Source of the DNA: Candidatus Aegiribacteria sp.
GTDB taxonomy: Bacteria > Fermentibacterota > Fermentibacteria > Fermentibacterales > Fermentibacteraceae
Length of the DNA stretch: 13,777 bases
Assembly (NCBI GenBank): GCA_021107345.1
Contig: JAIOSX010000174.1
Span: forward strand, 1-13,777
Reading direction: 5' to 3'
The notes below the pieces were generated by a model, which was not told the origin of the DNA, ran no database searches, and worked only from the letters and a program-made list of their open reading frames with translations. This document shows positions 1,196 to 13,777 of the stretch, piece by piece; position 1 is the first letter of the stretch; every line of letters starts with the position of its first letter. A program made the position numbers and the translations under genes.

Positions 1196-4100
1196 CTACG
1201 TGTTGAACTTAGCCAGCCATTTCTTTGCGTCAAGTTTAGTGAATATTTCAAATGACTGCCTGGTTCTTTCATCAGCCTCGGTTTTATTACCCAATTCCCC
1301 GAACATCAAACCCTGGTAGTAATAAACCTTGGCAAGCATGAACCTTTCCTTAAGCTCCTCGAATTGCGACAATGACCTGTTGAAACTGGATTTTGCTGTG
1401 TTGAAGTCCCCATCTTTAAGAGATACCCGACCCTCAAGGTAGAATGCTGCAGCCTGTATTTCCTTTGAATCGAATTCTTTCAGAAGAGATAAGAGTTCTT
1501 CCAGCTGTTTTCTGGCGTGAACTGTGTCTCCTTCTTCCAGAGAAAGGGTCGTTGTTGCTGTCAGTAATGAAGCAGTCAGTAGTTTTGACTTTAAATCCTT
1601 CAGAATTTCTTCAGCTTTAGTAAAGCAATCCCTGGCATTGTGAATATCACAATTCTCAAGATAAGCCCTGCCTTTTCGAATGTAGCATTTAGTGAGTCCG
1701 TCCGGATCGGGTGTTTCCTTATAAATTCTTATCGCATTTTCAATTATATCGATCGCTTTCTTGATATTCCCATGTCTGGCATACATTTCTCCAAGATTAA
1801 GGAAACATCCGGCTTCATTGACCTTATCTCCTGTTTCTCTGTACTTTTCCAGGGAATTGCTCAGGTATTTCTGAGCATTTTCATAATCTCCCGTAAGTAT
1901 GCAGATGCAACCAAGATTATTACACGTGATTGCTTCAGCTCTGCGATTCCCGATGGCTTTTATGATACTCATTGCTTTGCGATACAATTCAATAGCTCCC
2001 GTGAAATTCCCTCTGTAGTATTTGATATTCCCTGTATTTACCAGTGAAGCTATCTGACCTGCTTTGTCGCCTACTTTCTTACTGATACTCAGGGATTCAT
2101 CGTAAAGCTTCAATGCCTTTTTATATTCACCCATTCCAGTATAGGATGAGCCCATTCCGTTCAATGCATTCATTTCAATCTTATGCAGAGAATGCTTCCG
2201 TACTATTTTCAGAGAACGCTGGAAGTATTCAATAGAAATCTGGTATTCGCGAAGCATTCGCTTCCCGACGGCGATTCTTGTAAGACTGGATGCTTCACCT
2301 CTGATGTTCTTTACTTTTCTGTATATCCTGAGTGCGCTTTCAGCGGTTTCCACTGCTTTGTCATACAGCGAGATATCCTTGTAAACCCTGCTGATTTCGA
2401 TAAGACTATCAGCCCTGTCTACAAGATTCCCCGTTTTTTCCGAATGAACAATCGCCTTCTCAAGATCAGCTATGGCAAGATCGTTTTCTCCTATCAGATT
2501 GTATACGGAAGAACGGTTTCTCAGGCATTCAGACAGTCCTGGTTCAGTATCAGCATTTTCGGAAGATTCCAGAGTGTCTATTGCCCTTGTGTAAAATCTG
2601 ATGGCATCCCGGCTGGCATAAGCGTATTTAGCTCTGTCTCCCGCAATAATACTGAATTCAACCGCCTTTTCGTGATCACCGCATTGATAGAAATGATACG
2701 AGAGCTCCTCGACAACTTTCTCAATATTTCCACTGTTCAAAGAGAGTAGTTTCTCACCCACTCCATGATGAAACCGACTCAACCTTGTTTTGCTCATACG
2801 GTTGTATATTATTTCTCGAACAATATCCTCGGAAAATACGTAATGCTCCCCATTTCCCTCTGAAAGCAGCCTTTTCTCAAGAATCTCGTCCAGATGATCA
2901 AAAAGCTGCCCCTCGTTAATCCCTGTTACTTCATGGAGAAATCTGAAGCTGAATGCTCTTCCTATAACGGAGGCATGCTCCAGAAGAGAGTAGGCTCTAT
3001 CACTAAGTTTCTCCAGTTTTCTTTCGATTACGCCTTCTACTGAATAAGGAATCGTCTTTGCTGAACTTTCATCAAACTCATATTCACTTCCGTTCCAGTT
3101 CAGAGCACCATCATCCTTAAGAGATTTCAGCAGTTCTTCTATGAAAAACGGGTTGCCCCCGGTTTCTCTGTAAATGTACTCGGTAAGTTCTGGTGAAGAT
3201 TCCGTATCTATGATAGATGAGATAATCGTGGTAACTTCGTGTTTGTCCAGAGGTTCAAGAGTAATTTTCTTCATGAGGTTCTCACGAGCCATGGAATGCA
3301 GAACATTCTGAAAAGCACTGTGTTGAATCTCTTCAATCCGATAGACCAGTATGAATAGAATGGGTTTGCTTCGAAAAGCTCTTACAAGGTAGTGAAGAAG
3401 CTCAAGTGAATTTTCATCCGCCCAGTGAATATTATCAATACAGATGAACAAAGGACCATTCGCGATCTGAAGTTCAAGGAATTTCCTCACACCTTCGAAG
3501 AGTCTGAATCTGTCGACCATCAGAACTTCTTTGCCTTCTTCCACAGGCCTTTTAAGAATTTCAGGGACGATCTTGGCAAGCTCTATCTGATAAACCCTGG
3601 GAAGTTTATCAAAGTGTTGCTCATCCTGCATGAAGACTAGAAAACGAAGAACTTCCCTGAATGGGTAATAGGGAATGGAACGGGTCGTGGTCGACAGATT
3701 GCTGCATATGAATATTGTCTTCTCTTGAGACCTGGCAAGTGACAATTCTTGAAATAGTCGAGTTTTTCCGACACCGGTTTCACCGCTGATACAGACCGCT
3801 TCTCCCCTGAGGGAGAGAACGGATTCTACTATATCCTCCAGCATTGACAGCTCTGAAGATCGTCCGATCAGCTCAACGGCAGGAATGATCAGGCTCTTCT
3901 CAAGAAGGGCTCGGATTCCAATACGATCCCTGCCATGCCTTTTCGCGCTGTATAGATTTTTATCGGCAATATTGAAAAGGGGAAACCAGTCATTACCATC
4001 TTCAGGACAGGAGGCAATGCCAATGCTCATTGTCAACCTGATTTGTGCAAACTCCCTTGACCGGCATTGCTCAATAAATCGTTGAGAAATTCTGCATGCC

Positions 4101-4408
4101 AGTTTGAAATTGGTTTTGGGTAGAAGACATATGAATTCATCTCCACCATAACGGAATACTGAATCATCCTGCCTGATGATATCCTCTAAAAAGGATGAAA
4201 ATTGAACAAGTACCGAATCACCCATTGAATGCCCGTATGTGTCGTTTATATTTTTGAAATGGTCAAGATCAAGAAGTAAGATTGACAAAGGACTGCTTTC
4301 CCGGCAGGCTTTCTGTAAAGACTCAGGACCTTTTATGTTAAGATATCGTCGGTTATAAAGCCCACTCAGATCATCAAGATATTCCCTTTTCATCTCAATA
4401 TTCTTCAT
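1196..4408 (-). CDS. GGDEF diguanylate cyclase fused to AAA ATPase and TPR repeats
   Basis: A 1070-residue cytoplasmic signalling protein with no membrane segment. Residues about 10-165 form a complete GGDEF domain. It has the 'LSGLYNRRYL' entry motif, metal-binding D47 in 'DLDHFKNINDTYGH', the active-site GGDEF at 88-92, and the inhibitory c-di-GMP site RxxD at R79-D82, exactly five residues before GGDEF. It should therefore make c-di-GMP from GTP with product inhibition. Residues about 178-480 are a MalT/AAA_16-type ATPase, with Walker A GETGVGKT (209-216), Walker B 'FICIDNIHWAD' (321-331) and the conserved 'TGGNPFFIEELL' (416-427). From about 560 to 1065, a long run of TPR helices follows, with many A/G-x3-A/Y-x4-A patterns. 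The fold order resembles class III adenylyl cyclase-AAA-TPR and LuxR/MalT regulators, but a GGDEF takes the output position. The TPRs presumably sense a protein or small ligand; that is inference. An AAGGA lies 12 nt upstream of the ATG; a second in-frame ATG is at codon 6. Confidence 0.93.
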   Translation of the reverse strand: MKNIEMKREYLDDLSGLYNRRYLNIKGPESLQKACRESSPLSILLLDLDHFKNINDTYGHSMGDSVLVQFSSFLEDIIRQDDSVFRYGGDEFICLLPKTNFKLACRISQRFIEQCRSREFAQIRLTMSIGIASCPEDGNDWFPLFNIADKNLYSAKRHGRDRIGIRALLEKSLIIPAVELIGRSSELSMLEDIVESVLSLRGEAVCISGETGVGKTRLFQELSLARSQEKTIFICSNLSTTTRSIPYYPFREVLRFLVFMQDEQHFDKLPRVYQIELAKIVPEILKRPVEEGKEVLMVDRFRLFEGVRKFLELQIANGPLFICIDNIHWADENSLELLHYLVRAFRSKPILFILVYRIEEIQHSAFQNVLHSMARENLMKKITLEPLDKHEVTTIISSIIDTESSPELTEYIYRETGGNPFFIEELLKSLKDDGALNWNGSEYEFDESSAKTIPYSVEGVIERKLEKLSDRAYSLLEHASVIGRAFSFRFLHEVTGINEGQLFDHLDEILEKRLLSEGNGEHYVFSEDIVREIIYNRMSKTRLSRFHHGVGEKLLSLNSGNIEKVVEELSYHFYQCGDHEKAVEFSIIAGDRAKYAYASRDAIRFYTRAIDTLESSENADTEPGLSECLRNRSSVYNLIGENDLAIADLEKAIVHSEKTGNLVDRADSLIEISRVYKDISLYDKAVETAESALRIYRKVKNIRGEASSLTRIAVGKRMLREYQISIEYFQRSLKIVRKHSLHKIEMNALNGMGSSYTGMGEYKKALKLYDESLSISKKVGDKAGQIASLVNTGNIKYYRGNFTGAIELYRKAMSIIKAIGNRRAEAITCNNLGCICILTGDYENAQKYLSNSLEKYRETGDKVNEAGCFLNLGEMYARHGNIKKAIDIIENAIRIYKETPDPDGLTKCYIRKGRAYLENCDIHNARDCFTKAEEILKDLKSKLLTASLLTATTTLSLEEGDTVHARKQLEELLSLLKEFDSKEIQAAAFYLEGRVSLKDGDFNTAKSSFNRSLSQFEELKERFMLAKVYYYQGLMFGELGNKTEADERTRQSFEIFTKLDAKKWLAKFNT

Positions 4409-5177: not shown

Positions 5178-5280
5178 GAAAACTCCTTTCCTTTTCTGTA
5201 TTGTACTACATATTCCTTAATGCAAGATGATACTTCGATGGTAAAGGGTCAAGGATGATATACAAAAGAGTATTGCAGTG

Positions 5281-5712
5281 ATGATAGAAATAACAGGATC
5301 AATAAAAATACAGGAAGATGAACTCGAATTCGATTTTGTTCATTCGGGAGGCCCCGGTGGGCAGAAGGTTAACAAAACAGCATCCGCGGTAGTAATGAAA
5401 TTCGATATACGGAACTCACCCTCCCTTCCGGAGGAAGTAAGGAAACGCCTTGAGGAAATATGCGGCAACCGTGTGAACAGGAAAGGTATTCTGGTAATCC
5501 ACGCCAGGCAGCACCGCTCACAGATAAAAAACAGGGGAAGCGCTGTAAACATGCTGATCAAACTTATTAGAAAGGCTTCTGAAATTCCGGTGAAAAGGAA
5601 ACTGACAAAGCCTTCAGCAGCATCTGAGAAGGATAGACTGGCGGAAAAGAAAAGACGTAGTCTTCTGAAGAAAAACAGAAATTACATGCCTTCAAAGGAA
5701 GACTATGAATAG
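5281..5712 (+). CDS. arfB: ArfB-type peptidyl-tRNA hydrolase (ribosome rescue)
   Basis: A 143-residue class I release-factor-like protein that should hydrolyse peptidyl-tRNA on stalled ribosomes. The GGQ catalytic motif is at residues 26-28 in 'HSGGPGGQKVNKTAS'. Counted from the ATG at 5281, this is the same position as in E. coli ArfB (YaeJ), so this start is preferred over the adjacent GTG at 5278. The conserved 'VNRKGILVIHARQHRSQIKNR' region appears around residues 64-84. The C-terminal ~40 residues are rich in Lys/Arg (PVKRKLTKPS...KKRRSLLKKNR), matching the tail that ArfB inserts into the empty mRNA channel. There is no codon-recognition domain, as expected for ArfB rather than RF1/RF2. 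The shine-dalgarno signal is weak (AAAAGAG at 5264-5270). It lies 74 nt upstream of selD on the same strand and may be cotranscribed with it. Confidence 0.9.
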   Translation: MIEITGSIKIQEDELEFDFVHSGGPGGQKVNKTASAVVMKFDIRNSPSLPEEVRKRLEEICGNRVNRKGILVIHARQHRSQIKNRGSAVNMLIKLIRKASEIPVKRKLTKPSAASEKDRLAEKKRRSLLKKNRNYMPSKEDYE

Positions 5713-5786
5713 CTGTTCCCAGTTGCAGGCTTTTGTATATTTCGGCTGCAGGTATTAAATACCAATATCCTATGAAATGAGATGAT

Positions 5787-7007
5787 TTGCCAGATTTCAA
5801 GCTTTATACAGGAGAAAATTGTCCATGTCCCTCCGACTGTAAAAGACGGGGAAAATGTTCGGAATGCATAGCATTTCATCATGACAGGCACCAGCAGACC
5901 TACTGCGAATTTCTCCAGGAGAAACTGCAGTGCGGCGGTATTCCCCAGCGTTCGCTTCCATCAGGTAAAGAGATAAGGCTGACGGAGTACGGCCCCTGCG
6001 CCGGTTGAGCAGGCAAACTTAACCCGACCAGGCTGGCCGGGATACTTGAAAAACTGCCTCTACCCGATTCACCCAACCTTATTGTCGGGATGCAGACGAT
6101 GGACGATGCGGGAGTATACAGGCTTACCGACGAGATAGCCCTCGTTCAAAGCGTTGATTTCTTCTTCCCTATAGTAGATGATCCAAGAAGTTTCGGAAGG
6201 ATAGCAGCCGCAAACAGCCTTTCGGATATCTGGGCTATGGGAGCCAGAGCAATTACGGCGATGAACCATCTGGCTTATCCTGCGGGGAAGATCCCGCCTG
6301 AAGCGATCGAGGAACTTCTTACAGGGGCTGCGGAAAAACTTCATGAATCAGGTGTGGTTCTCCTGGGCGGACACACCATGGAACAGGAGGATTTCTGTTA
6401 CGGTATGAGCGTAACAGGAATTACAAACCCCCGAACAGCCCTTACGAATGACAATGCAAAACCGGGAGACCTGATAATCCTGACAAAACCTATCGGTACG
6501 GGAGTTTGCTGCGATGCCATGATGAATGGCGGTCTGAACTCGGAGCAGTTCAACGCTTTCGTTTACTGGATGGAACGGCTGAACAAGTACGCCTCCGAGA
6601 TAATACAGAGGTTCGATGTAAGCTGCCTGACAGATGTTACAGGCTTCGGCCTTCTGGGTCATTCGCTACCCGTAGCCAGGAATGCTGGAGTCAGGATAGT
6701 GATAAATTCGAAAGATGTACCGCTCCTGCCGGGCCTGCCCGGTCTACTTGACAAATTCAATCCAAAGGGCGTCTGTAAGTGTTCTGACTACGTTGACCCT
6801 TTCCTGAAAATCGGGGAAAACGTTGACAGAAAATATTATTCACTGTTCGCCGAAGCCCAGACTTCCGGAGGACTGCTTGCAACCGTCAGGCAGGATCAGG
6901 CGGATGCCCTTGTTAAAACCCTCAGGGAACACGGGGATACCGAAGCAGCCATAATCGGACATGTTCAGAAGATGGATGATCCATCCGTACTGCTTGAACT
7001 GATATGA
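5787..7007 (+). CDS. selD: Selenocysteine-containing selenophosphate synthetase with Cys-rich N-terminal domain
   Basis: SelD makes selenophosphate from selenide and ATP, the selenium donor for selenocysteine. The frame is open from TTG 5787 to 7007 except for one TGA at 6006-6008. Around it the protein reads 'IRLTEYGPCAG-U-AGK', which aligns with E. coli 'IRLTQYSHGAG-C17-GCK': the UGA sits on catalytic Cys17, and the essential Lys20 is kept. Downstream SelD motifs are intact: 'MDDAGVY', 'DFFFPIVDDPRSFGRIAAANSLSDIWAMG', 'LLGGHTME', 'DVTGFGLLGH' and 'AQTSGGLL' (given here as separate short motifs). Read through, it has 406 residues with Sec at 74, longer than the usual ~345. The extra N terminus carries C12, C14, C18, C24, C27, H31 and C40, a pattern I associate with small DUF6485-like Cys-rich proteins. 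TTG 5787 is the only usual start codon between the upstream in-frame stop (5778) and the UGA, with no strong ribosome site. Without Sec decoding this would be mis-split into a 73-residue fragment and a SelD lacking its active site starting at 6090. Confidence 0.92.
6006..6041 (+). promoter_or_regulatory. UGA Sec codon with candidate bacterial SECIS hairpin
   Basis: The in-frame TGA at 6006-6008 is followed by a stem: CCCG 6023-6026 pairs with CGGG 6038-6041, an A-C mismatch follows, then CC 6028-6029 pairs with GG 6035-6036. The apical loop AGGCU is at 6030-6034. The loop starts 22 nt after the UGA, inside the range known for bacterial SECIS elements that bind SelB. The loop resembles the AGGUCU loop of E. 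coli fdhF in having A-G-G first. The stem is seen in the sequence; SelB binding is inferred from its position and from the SelD context. Confidence 0.65.
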
Positions 7008-7741
7008 ACTGTCCAAAATGCGGACATGAACAAAATGATGAAAACAACGAATGTGTCCGATGCGGATTAATCTTCAGCCAGTACAAACCTTTGGATTACG
7101 ATAGGATACTGATAAGATCACCTTTCAATGAGACTGAAAAACGGTCGCCGCTAAAGCGCATTTTCAATTATATGTTCCACACAAAAGATGAAATTGAAAT
7201 CGTGTACTTCATAGGAAGGCTCATCGTTTTCATTTTCCTCTTCATCTGGAGCATTAAGTTCCTTCAGTGTTCCATCGAAAGCAACTATGTAGGAAAATCC
7301 TTCCTGCATCTTGTTAACCTGCCTTTCCATGAAGCGGGACATATTGTTTTCAGGCCTCTGGGCAGAGTTATGCATTCCCTTGGTGGAAGTCTGGGGCAGG
7401 TTATCATGCCATTGATCTGTACCCTTGTCCTCCTGATCAAGACCCGTGACACTTTCGGTGCCTCCATAGGTCTGTGGTGGATGGGAGAAAGTATACTGGA
7501 CATGGCTCCATATATAAATGACTCAAGATCAATGAGTCTTCAGCTTCTCGGTGGTAATACTGGCGCTTCATCCCCGTACGGTTTTCACGACTGGAATTTC
7601 ATACTTACCGAGTTGAATCTGCTCAGGCATGATCACCTGATTGCAAACATTGCGGCCACAGGAGGTAAGCTGATTATTTCCTTATCCCTTATTTGGGGAG
7701 CAATACTCCTGTTCAGGCAGTTCAGAAGACTGAAAATGTAA
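7004..7741 (+). CDS. Zinc-ribbon membrane protein with HEAGH (M50-like) motif
   Basis: A 245-residue integral membrane protein. It opens with a zinc ribbon (C3-x2-C6 ... C17-x2-C20: 'CPKCGHEQ', 'CVRCGLIF'). This is followed by a hydrophilic linker and a first membrane segment at about 65-88. The motif FHEAGH (108-113) then gives an HExxH zinc site at the edge of a membrane region, as in site-2-protease-like M50 proteins. More hydrophobic segments lie at about 128-147 and 218-238, with conserved-looking 'GLWWMGESILDMAPY' and 'HDWNFILTELNLL' between them. The classical M50 NPxxxDG third-ligand motif is absent; the D166 or H195-D196 region could supply it. The ATG overlaps the selD stop as ATGA, so translational coupling is very likely and a link to selenium metabolism is possible. 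Peptidase activity is not proven by the motif. Palindromes downstream (7765-7779) are the only terminator-like feature after the gene. Confidence 0.85.
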   Translation: MNCPKCGHEQNDENNECVRCGLIFSQYKPLDYDRILIRSPFNETEKRSPLKRIFNYMFHTKDEIEIVYFIGRLIVFIFLFIWSIKFLQCSIESNYVGKSFLHLVNLPFHEAGHIVFRPLGRVMHSLGGSLGQVIMPLICTLVLLIKTRDTFGASIGLWWMGESILDMAPYINDSRSMSLQLLGGNTGASSPYGFHDWNFILTELNLLRHDHLIANIAATGGKLIISLSLIWGAILLFRQFRRLKM

Positions 7742-12142: not shown

Positions 12143-12796
12143 TCAGCTCATGTCCACCACTTCACCGGTACAGAGGTAGACGACGCGTTCACATATATTG
12201 ACAACCCTGTCCCCGACTCGCTCAAGGTTATGGGCTGCAAAGGTCAGCAGCATGGCATCTGCCATTCTTTCCGGGTTCTGCATTACATGTGTAATCAGTT
12301 CCCTGTAAACCTGTTCGTATAGCAGGTCAATTTCAATATCCATTGCGGGCAGCTTCTCAGCAATTGAGATATCACGGTCAAGGAATGCTTTAATGGACAG
12401 ATTGAGCATTTCACATGCCTTTTCCTGCATCCGGGGGATATTTATGAGGGGTTTCACATGCGTTCCGGGAGGAATCTTGCTGTTTATCACCGCTATGCCC
12501 TTTGCATAGTCGGCAATTCTTTCAAGCTCCATTGCTATTTGCATGGTTGCGAAGAGAAAGCGCAGGTCACCCGCTACCGGCTGCTGAGTCGCAATAATAT
12601 TCAGACACTGTTCCTCGATATCATGGCACTGAAGATTGATATTCTCATCGTTCAGAATAAGCCCCTCACCCTCGCTGAACTGTCTATCCTTGAGAATCCT
12701 GACTGATCTATCAAGGGCATTCTCCGCCATCCTTGAGAGTATGAGCAGTTCTTCTCTGAGACTGTTCATTTCCGCTTCATAAGTTTCTCTGACCAT
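12143..12796 (-). CDS. phoU: Phosphate transport regulator PhoU
   Basis: PhoU, 217 residues, the usual length. It links the Pst transporter to the PhoR/PhoB system and limits phosphate uptake. It is all-helical with two three-helix bundles, and both metal-binding ExxxD motifs are present: E92-D96 in 'ELERIADYAKGIA' and E192-D196 in 'NLERVGDRVVNICE'. The 'IATQQPVAGDLRFLFATMQIA' segment (68-88 or so) is the strongly conserved PhoU core. The ATG at 12796 follows a GAGGAGAG site in the 15-nt gap after pstB, so it is in the pst operon. No good terminator is seen after it. Confidence 0.96.
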   Translation of the reverse strand: MVRETYEAEMNSLREELLILSRMAENALDRSVRILKDRQFSEGEGLILNDENINLQCHDIEEQCLNIIATQQPVAGDLRFLFATMQIAMELERIADYAKGIAVINSKIPPGTHVKPLINIPRMQEKACEMLNLSIKAFLDRDISIAEKLPAMDIEIDLLYEQVYRELITHVMQNPERMADAMLLTFAAHNLERVGDRVVNICERVVYLCTGEVVDMS

Positions 12797-12811
12797 TATT
12801 CTTTCTCTCCT

Positions 12812-13594
12812 CTATCCGAATCTGCCGGAGATATAATCTTCCGTTCTGCTGTCAACCGGATTTGTGAACATTTCTTTTGTTGGGCCGAATTCAATCAGAT
12901 TTCCGGATCTTTCCAGATCAGTGAGCAGAAAAGCCGTGAAATCCGACACCCTTGCGGCCTGCTGCATGTTATGAGTTACAACCACGATGGTATACTTGCT
13001 TTTAAGCTTCTCCATGAGTTCTTCTATTTTCAGAGTGGCCACCGGATCAAGTGCGGATGCAGGTTCATCCATCAGAATAACCTCAGGTTCCACGGCAAGT
13101 GCCCTTGCTATACAGAGTCTCTGCTGCTGTCCACCGGAAAGGGAGAATGCCGACCTGCCAAGATCATCCTTCACTTCATCCCAGAGAGCCGCGTCCCTGA
13201 TACTTTTCTCGGCAATCGCCGCCAGCTTCGACTTATCCCTGATCCCATGAATACGAGGACCATACGCGACGTTATCAAATATAGATTTGGGGAACGGATT
13301 TGGCCGCTGAAAGACCATTCCCACCTTCCTGCGGAGATCAACAACATCCTGGGAATAGATATCTTCCCCATCTATCAGAATACTTCCCTCTGTTCTCATA
13401 TTGCCAATAAGATCGTTCATTCTGTTGAAGCTTCTGATCAGAGAACTCTTGCCGCACCCGGAGGGACCTATTATCGCCGTTATCCTGTTTACGGGTATAT
13501 CCATGCTTATGCTGTTCAGGGCTTTAAAATCTCCGTAAAACAATGAGTAGTTGATAGTCTTCATTACCTTCTTACCTGTCATGTTGAAAGCCAT
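12812..13594 (-). CDS. pstB: Phosphate ABC transporter ATP-binding protein PstB
   Basis: PstB energises phosphate import through PstA/PstC. It has 260 residues, normal for the family. Visible motifs: Walker A GPSGCGKS (43-50), Q-loop Q96 in '[12 protein letters not shown]', signature LSGGQQQR (152-159), Walker B '[12 protein letters not shown]' (172-183, catalytic E177) and switch H208 in '[10 protein letters not shown]'. 'RPNPFP' is the PstB-specific stretch. The start is uncertain: ATG 13594 overlaps the pstA end by 16 nt, and ATG 13582 would give a 4-nt ATGA overlap. Both lack a clear ribosome site, which fits translational coupling. Operon order is pstA-pstB-phoU. Confidence 0.97.
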
Positions 13595-13777
13595 CTTGAT
13601 ACGGTGTTGATTACCAGATTAAGTAGAATTATCAGTACGACCAGAACAGCACCTGTCGCAAGAGCCTTATCAAATGCCCTGGTTTCCATGGCAAGATAGT
13701 AAACATGAAGAGCCATGGTCCTGCCACTGGACATGAGAGAAGTAGGGGTTCTGTAACTTCCACCCAGAGTAACATAG
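13579..13777 (-). CDS. pstA: Phosphate ABC transporter permease PstA, 3' end only
   Basis: The last 65 residues of a protein that runs off the right edge. It ends in the typical PstA C terminus: '[20 protein letters not shown]', then one hydrophobic helix (about 20 residues, [14 protein letters not shown]) and a short basic-polar tail 'TVSRWLST'. 'LHVYYLA' matches the PstA 'LPVxIYxLA' region. The stop TGA (13581-13579) overlaps the fifth codon of pstB. The 5' part, and any pstC and pstS, lie outside the window. Confidence 0.85.

Follow-up and report, generated by a model that had tools for sequence, protein, structure and literature searches.

A selenophosphate synthetase with a predicted catalytic selenocysteine and a conserved N-terminal, DUF6485-like cysteine-rich domain in Candidatus Aegiribacteria

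Introduction

Selenophosphate synthetase (SelD) uses selenide and ATP to produce selenophosphate. In Candidatus Aegiribacteria sp., a selD gene presents an in-frame UGA codon where the catalytic cysteine would be expected, and 73 codons stand in front of this UGA. Two questions follow, namely whether the UGA is read as selenocysteine (Sec) and what the preceding 73 residues are. The gene lies on contig JAIOSX010000174.1, in a stretch of 13,777 nucleotides that was analysed as a whole and is hereafter called the window. An initial annotation of this DNA had already proposed a Sec-containing SelD, treating the 73 residues as a mere fragment left by the interruption of the gene. In this work the locus was compared with its relatives, and the features that emerged are collected in Table 1.

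A single reading frame extends across the UGA codon

The reading frame continues in phase across the TGA, as initially proposed, being open on both sides of it, and U74 falls within the string IRLTEYGPCAG-U-AGK. The residue number hinges on TTG 5787 as the start codon, an in-frame TGA being present just upstream at 5778-5780. Alignment of the read-through protein to SelD families, suggested with the initial annotation as a check, gives a consistent picture: residues 64-371 score 323.2 bits on the SelD model TIGR00476 (cut-off 125), and the closest solved relatives by sequence are the SelDs of E. coli (3u0o, E 6e-56) and Aquifex (2yye, E 1.7e-51). In the alignment to 3u0o, U74 stands over a Cys and K77 over a Lys, which we take to be the catalytic Cys17 and Lys20; this agrees with the earlier proposal of a Sec at the catalytic Cys position and a retained Lys. 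Moreover, the AlphaFold2 model of the whole protein (pLDDT 86.4, pTM 0.83) retrieves 2yye_B in a Foldseek search (E 4.5e-36, TMt 0.90), that is, a SelD fold, and a Pfam scan of the whole protein returns AIRS and AIRS_C alone.

Table 1. Features of the selD locus, in window coordinates
Feature	Position	Strand	Basis
selD read through UGA, 406 residues (Cys-rich domain and selenophosphate synthetase)	5787..7007	+	TIGR00476 match, alignments, structure
selD start TTG (tentative) and stop TGA	5787 (start); 7005-7007 (stop)	+	five relatives align from residue 1
N-terminal DUF6485-like domain, CPCPx2Cx5Cx2C...H...TYC; borders approximate	5805..5930	+	invariant residues, hhalign
CxxU motif Cys71-Ala-Gly-Sec74 (Sec predicted), SelD active-site loop	5997..6008	+	Cys invariant in 37 rows
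UGA codon for predicted Sec74, catalytic Cys position	6006..6008	+	TGA in 50/50 fused relatives
SECIS-like stem-loop (putative)	6023..6041	+	stem 6023-6030 with 6034-6041, loop GGC 6031-6033, covariation
Shortened ORF called as SelD by gene callers, 305 aa, without active-site loop	6090..7007	+	ATG 6090; database copy P0002

Both parts of the frame evolve as protein. Against relatives L001-L005, dN/dS amounts to 0.09-0.20 before the UGA and 0.045-0.10 after it, with dS near saturation for L004 and L005; these values are well below 1, and purifying selection acts on both sides of the codon. In addition, the catalytic codon is TGA, and never TAA or TAG, in all 50 fused loci, distributed over 43 genomes, although these loci are kin rather than 50 independent events and were found with a profile that holds the active-site letters and thereby favours the TGA class. 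The set consists of L117-L146 (n=30), L268-L279 (n=12) and eight loci from other phyla (L170-L172, L195, L196, L225, L255 and L256); it comprises every match that reached the end of the profile, minus L194 and the tandem copy of L142, both of which are without the domain, and includes L278, whose frame breaks further on. Since every one of the 50 fused loci has TGA at that position, conservation of the in-frame UGA is more than chance. Among unfused SelD loci (L011-L080, n=70), the pattern applied gave a clear catalytic codon in 57, with 32 TGA and 25 TGC or TGT, and left 13 without a call.

A conserved cysteine-rich domain precedes the UGA

The view of the 73 residues as a fragment has to be abandoned: they evidently form a Cys-rich domain that is conserved, shares the frame of SelD and is remotely related to DUF6485. 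Six cysteines (12, 14, 18, 24, 27 and 40) and His31 characterize this domain; C12, C14, C24, H31 and C40 are invariant in 37 aligned rows, while C18 and C27 are found in at least 90% of them, and the pattern CPCP..C.R.G.C..C..[FY]H......T.C is common to relatives L001-L010.

The relationship to DUF6485 passes through standalone relatives of the domain, encoded at 12 loci of the same phylum, nine of which were aligned together with two database proteins. The family model PF20095 (DUF6485) is matched by 10 of these 11 standalone rows, with a best E of 5e-8 and the first row exactly at the 24-bit cut-off, and hhalign pairs the fused domain with the standalone alignment at a probability of 98.7% over 38 columns. 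None of 11 fused N-terminal domains matched PF20095 at E up to 10, in a search in which HMMER filters drop most weak matches. The fused domain is thus best described as DUF6485-like and, by these profile comparisons, not as a member of PF20095; the label was chosen because the domain itself falls short of the family model and is linked to it via standalone intermediates.

No model of Pfam or NCBIfam covers the front domain, nor was an NADH dehydrogenase-like or NifS-like domain matched in the 73-residue front. Names such as Sod_Fe_N, US29, Integrin_B_tail, SBP_bac_6 and hit_Bd0108, which appeared with a best E of 0.0022, were discarded as weak matches that reflect the composition of a stretch rich in Cys and His. 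Modelled alone, the domain folds into two helices with a mean pLDDT of 66.9, rising to 74-86 in blocks across residues 11-50, and Foldseek returned no PDB match for it; the term DUF6485 likewise had no match in the literature search. As a separate observation, four 63-residue database proteins (P0200, P0201, P0204 and P0205) are close in sequence to the fused domain (e.g., LYQG.NCPC...GEQTYCE), end in CPS or CSS and are without the SelD active-site letters.

Is this domain translated as part of SelD? As a start codon TTG 5787 is weak, and some unfused SelDs begin close before the Sec codon, as in L011, where the upstream open stretch measures 33 codons. One may then think of a SelD that starts after the Cys-rich domain and takes in no more than the final residues ahead of the UGA, the domain being a separate product of the same frame. 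We regard this as very unlikely, as no stop intervenes between domain and UGA in any of the 50 fused loci and the gene caller's start in most database fronts is a Met shortly before the domain.

A covarying stem-loop behind the UGA

The initial annotation placed a hairpin 22 nt after the UGA. A covarying hairpin does exist in that region; however, its stem begins 14 nt after the UGA (6023), and it is the GGC loop that is reached after 22 nt. Across 45 distinct sequences, the window included, the stem 18-25/29-36 is paired in 90.6% of cells. Double changes occur in five of the eight stem pairs, in 53 cells versus 19.3 in shuffles. The covariation score is 0.381 compared with 0.092 in shuffled alignments (0 of 500 shuffles), and does not exceed 0.080 with a slid partner, a control that is flattered because these very sequences had been folded to obtain the structure. 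Pairs 18:36 and 21:33 connect third codon positions, wobble to wobble, with CG, GC and UA all present at both; therefore, the protein does not force the pairing. Left unguided, RNAalifold recovers the same helix minus pair 22:32, which is an A-C mismatch in the window and unpaired in 15 of the 45 sequences.

The loop reads GGC in 29 rows, GGU in 10 and otherwise in 6, one of which (ACC) is without G; a G within a small apical loop is a feature of bacterial SECIS elements in the portion of PMC1088965 available to us. L172 and L196 fit the hairpin poorly, with 5 of 8 pairs each. In the window alone the stability of the hairpin is unremarkable (z = -0.15 over 48 nt and -1.48 over 29 nt), and an Rfam scan gave nothing at the gathering threshold. 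In other words, the support for this candidate element comes from covariation.

These data bear on the simplest reading of the locus, in which the UGA is an ordinary stop and the locus has two products, a Cys-rich protein of 73 residues and a SelD-like protein that is shortened and starts at ATG 6090. Gene callers do treat the codon in this way, and the short product may be made when selenium is low. Nevertheless, the shortened SelD would be deprived of both the catalytic residue and the Lys, active-site letters and purifying selection run across the UGA, and the invariable choice of TGA is accompanied by a covarying hairpin. As a full account of the locus, an ordinary stop is extremely improbable.

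Selenocysteine machinery in close relatives

The closest loci derive from metagenome-assembled genomes (MAGs) of Candidatus Aegiribacteria and Candidatus Fermentibacteria; among the best 80 of at least 588 loci, identity to the SelD of the window is 94% for L001, 89% for L002 and L003, and 78% for L004 and L005. The genomes of L001-L010 all contain selA and selB over the curated cut-offs (10/10 each, with 1/14 and 2/14 in control genomes, respectively). With 150 candidates scored per genome, the tRNA-Sec model exceeds its cut-off in 8 of the 10 and in 5 of the 14 controls; the two weakest of the eight matches were dismissed, being identified by ARAGORN as tRNA-Ser, and the same program confirms tRNA-Sec(UCA) in 6 of the 10 genomes. 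When the tRNA-Sec of one relative was used as a DNA query, 38 of the phylum's 42 genomes gave a match; it covered all 97 bases in 36 genomes and was partial in two, one of which is G001, the nearest genome. The other four genomes gave none, and as these are MAGs such absences mean little. On a side note, contigs C6 and C244 of G007 (L081, L091, L097, L103, L105 and L115) hold two sets of selA, selB and tRNA-Sec, either real or due to a mixed bin.

Sec decoding is thus supported by gene content for close relatives only, and the earlier statement that the organism itself decodes Sec holds within that reach. The two findings named at the outset as contrary to this reading, a lack of selA, selB and selC and an unrelated sequence before the stop, did not appear in the kin, where all three genes are present and the front is conserved. 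Because the UGA occupies the catalytic position in 50 fused relatives, a covarying stem-loop follows it and selA, selB and tRNA-Sec occur in kin, the assignment of this SelD as a putative selenoprotein is supported. Reassignment of UGA in this lineage to a different amino acid is scarcely credible: no point in its favour was found, TGA serves as the stop codon of 4 of the window's 11 main ORFs, including selD, and the kin possess tRNA-Sec(UCA), selA and selB.

Distribution and history of the fusion

Within the phylum of G001 the domain is matched in 40 of 42 genomes, and in 35 of the 42 it is fused to a Sec-SelD. Seven of these 35 genomes have two fused SelDs; in G034, G035 and G037-G041 (L117, L118, L120, L121, L126, L129 and L135, together with L268-L272, L275 and L276) the two fused Sec-SelDs of each genome fall in separate branches. 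Outside this phylum the fusion was found in eight genomes belonging to four other phyla (3/392, 2/167, 1/387 and 2/82), counts that include the entry genomes and are lower bounds, since two of the four were sampled searches in which no more than 15 candidates per genome were scored. All fused SelDs carry CAGU (CxxU) with Sec, a motif that is not confined to fusions, being present also in the unfused L011, L028, L077, L079 and L194.

In a tree of 79 SelDs, built with a quick method and SH-aLRT support only, 49 of the 50 fused rows group in one branch with support 100. Two SelDs, L011 and L142b, are located inside this branch and are without the domain, while L172 is placed outside. A history in which the fusion arose once and was never lost is rejected (p 0.0007), given the positions of L011 and L142b. 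For L172, the tree suggests a second, independent fusion; forcing it together with the other fused rows costs 2.7 log units and is not rejected (p-AU 0.39). Locus L142 itself, in G016, contains tandem Sec-SelDs with UGAs at 342 and 1714 on the plus strand, the first with a long Pro/Glu-rich open front and the second fused. SelD records from plasmids number 167, all below 60% identity.

The gene is split in protein databases

It had been anticipated that standard annotation would break the gene into a 73-residue piece and a SelD without its active site, and this is what the database copies display. At E up to 10, a profile of the domain retrieves 98 short database proteins, 90 of which also pass 1e-3. 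Judged by their protein ends, 85 of the latter, 57-100 residues long, terminate in CAG, the residues that immediately precede the UGA in the gene. Three of the eight weaker matches also end in CAG and are without the domain. Since gene callers cut at the UGA, the short front is filed as a "hypothetical protein", and the 24 database SelDs aligned from this group, of 302-335 aa, all start downstream of that codon; the database copy of the shortened ORF of the window, P0002, has 305 aa and is 100% identical to it. A full-length protein with this front and a sense codon was also sought, using search words from the window alone, and the one candidate did not match; with such search words and a profile that includes the active-site letters, distant Cys forms could be missed.

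Genomic neighbourhoods

A connection between the domain and SelD is also observed in another lineage, in the form of adjacency. Specifically, L184 (MAG G057, the single genome of its class in the set analysed and of the same phylum as G006, a Phycisphaerae bacterium) contains at 1456-2707 on the minus strand an unfused Sec-SelD with CxxU (FAKCAGUAGK) and, 4 nt after its stop, a DUF6485-like gene. The two elements are thus fused in one lineage and neighbours in another, the latter being a single case. Among 102 loci from other searches, only two had a sel gene, L184 being a real adjacency; the other, L194, was rejected as a domain neighbour, as its SelD was matched via its own active-site letters and is without the domain. 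The flanks examined around 70 unfused selD loci contained no DUF6485-like domain, in a search run with a positive control. Eight in-frame TGAs of profile matches were read as possible Sec codons and turned out to be stops after short standalone proteins.

Other observations weigh against a selenium role for the family at large. Standalone DUF6485 genes are widespread, exceeding the cut-off in 182 of 395 genomes of one phylum, and the family is matched also in Methanocaldococcus jannaschii and Thermotoga maritima. Of the 12 standalone DUF6485-like genes from the home phylum, most adjoin genes for a phosphofructokinase and a HAD hydrolase.

As for the surroundings of the fused gene, neighbour clusters recur in part of the loci. 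In the window, a gene for the alternative ribosome rescue hydrolase ArfB (NF006718, 150.5 bits) occupies 5278-5712 on the same plus strand, 74 nt upstream of selD, and its cluster c5 is present in 10 of 34 clustered loci. Downstream, the ATG of the gene at 7004-7741 (+) overlaps the selD stop (ATGA 7004-7007); its product, by eye, has a zinc-ribbon-like start and a HEAGH motif, gave no Pfam match, and corresponds to cluster c12, found in 7 of 34 loci. Elsewhere in the window, inspection by eye points to a GGDEF/AAA/TPR-like protein of 1070 aa at 1196-4408 (-) and to PhoU-, PstB- and PstA-like genes at 12143-13776 (-).

Comparison with known selenophosphate synthetases

A Sec-containing SelD is not new in itself, as the initial annotation acknowledged, and the Sec form with UxxK is listed in the available part of PMC9312934. 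With the known Sec-SelDs (TIGR00476; PMC9312934, same part) the protein of the window shares the enzyme family, the predicted Sec at the catalytic Cys position and UxxK (U74-A-G-K77), while it differs in the additional N-terminal Cys-rich domain and in the Cys three positions before Sec (CxxU).

According to the sections of PMC2398784 and PMC4561486 at hand, reported bacterial SelD fusions involve NADH dehydrogenase-like (Ndh) or NifS-like domains, always at the N-terminus, and a Cys-type SelD except in Geobacter sp. FRC-32; in protists, PMC4561486, as far as its available text goes, describes a methyltransferase fusion and a long extension in Plasmodium. Within the same extent of PMC2398784, all Ndh-SelD fusions have CxxC in the active site, a motif rare in single-domain SelDs (<5%), and NifS-SelD has CxxU. 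The protein described here resembles Ndh-SelD in its N-terminal fusion and in the second Cys three before the catalytic residue, whereas the partner there is NADH dehydrogenase-like and the motif is Cys/CxxC instead of Sec/CxxU. The NifS-SelD of Geobacter sp. FRC-32 is alike in N-terminal fusion, Sec and CxxU; its partner, in contrast, is a Cys sulfinate desulfinase that delivers selenium, two prokaryotic instances being reported, one with Sec (PMC2398784 and PMC4561486, in the parts cited above). The fused SelDs of this group thus repeat with another partner the combination of a fusion and a second Cys three before the catalytic residue.

Standalone DUF6485 (PF20095) proteins have in common with the fused domain the CxCx3-4C...GxCxxC..[FY]H...C pattern; the fused domain is without the C-terminal part of the standalone members examined and is joined to SelD. 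Finally, TIGR04369 (oxidoreductase/SelD-related fusion protein, fusion_not_SelD) matches the SelD-like part with 127 bits, far under its cut-off of 700, and no oxidoreductase part was found in the protein of the window.

A DUF6485-like-SelD fusion is absent from the literature searched, which included the accessible text of PMC5322559, PMC13188914, PMC12013277 and PMC9312934 and excluded supplements (for example, that of PMC4561486 on fusions) and subscription journals. The novelty therefore lies in the Cys-rich domain fused before the UGA, that is, in another kind of SelD fusion.

A possible role for the fused domain

Altogether, the locus very probably gives rise to one polypeptide that comprises a DUF6485-like domain, a linker and a Sec-SelD, in which the domain most likely would bind metal and assist selenium supply or CxxU reduction. 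That one fused protein is made we infer from the single frame, the Sec codon, the covarying hairpin and the machinery in kin; metal binding and the supply of selenium or electrons by the domain are suppositions. The product would be arranged as an N-terminal Cys-rich domain, a short linker and a selenophosphate synthetase with catalytic Sec, the latter being inserted at the UGA with the help of the stem-loop, SelB and tRNA-Sec. Since SelD makes selenophosphate, a Sec-containing SelD would depend on its own activity to be made. The six cysteines and His31 might coordinate a metal beside the mobile Sec loop, where C71 and U74 of the CxxU motif could form a selenenylsulfide. By analogy with what is supposed for the Ndh and NifS partners, the domain could supply or hold selenium, or keep the C71-U74 pair reduced; an NADH oxidoreductase, for instance, has been suggested to reduce a selenium compound for SelD in the available text of PMC2432076.

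A serious possibility, even if not a probable one, is that the Sec-SelD is real and the domain is a structural or regulatory appendage, such as a metal site for folding or contact, that takes no part in the supply of selenium or electrons. DUF6485 is indeed a common family, no selD, selA or selB was found beside standalone DUF6485 genes in 33 loci (six genomes and one sampled phylum, with flanks of about 1.5 kb), and the two SelDs without the domain inside the fused branch could be explained in this manner. On the other hand, retention of the domain in 35 of 42 genomes, the constancy of its cysteines and His31, and the gene directly behind an unfused selD in L184 are less expected of an appendage, and the other bacterial SelD fusions, in the parts of PMC2398784 and PMC4561486 mentioned, join redox or selenium-donor domains.

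The position of the UGA also raises the idea of a selenium-gated switch, by which one gene would yield either of two useful products; we consider this unlikely. If it were true, ample selenium would lead to read-through and fused SelD, and scarce selenium would end translation right after the complete Cys-rich domain; the free domain, which is similar to the DUF6485-like proteins that stand alone in this phylum, would then have a job of its own, e.g., to scavenge selenium or metal, or to hold it, for the SelD still present.

Conclusions

Returning to the reading that we favour, a fused protein with a domain that serves SelD, two consequences can be drawn. The first concerns an annotation blind spot: every fused copy found is interrupted by its own UGA and turned into a short unknown protein and a SelD without active site, so that surveys of domain fusions based on annotated proteins would miss the fusion. 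The second concerns selenium metabolism, as the route by which selenium reaches SelD in the cell is incompletely known according to the available text of PMC13188914. As a module attached to the Sec loop across most of a phylum, the domain would represent a direct lead to a selenium-supply partner for SelD.
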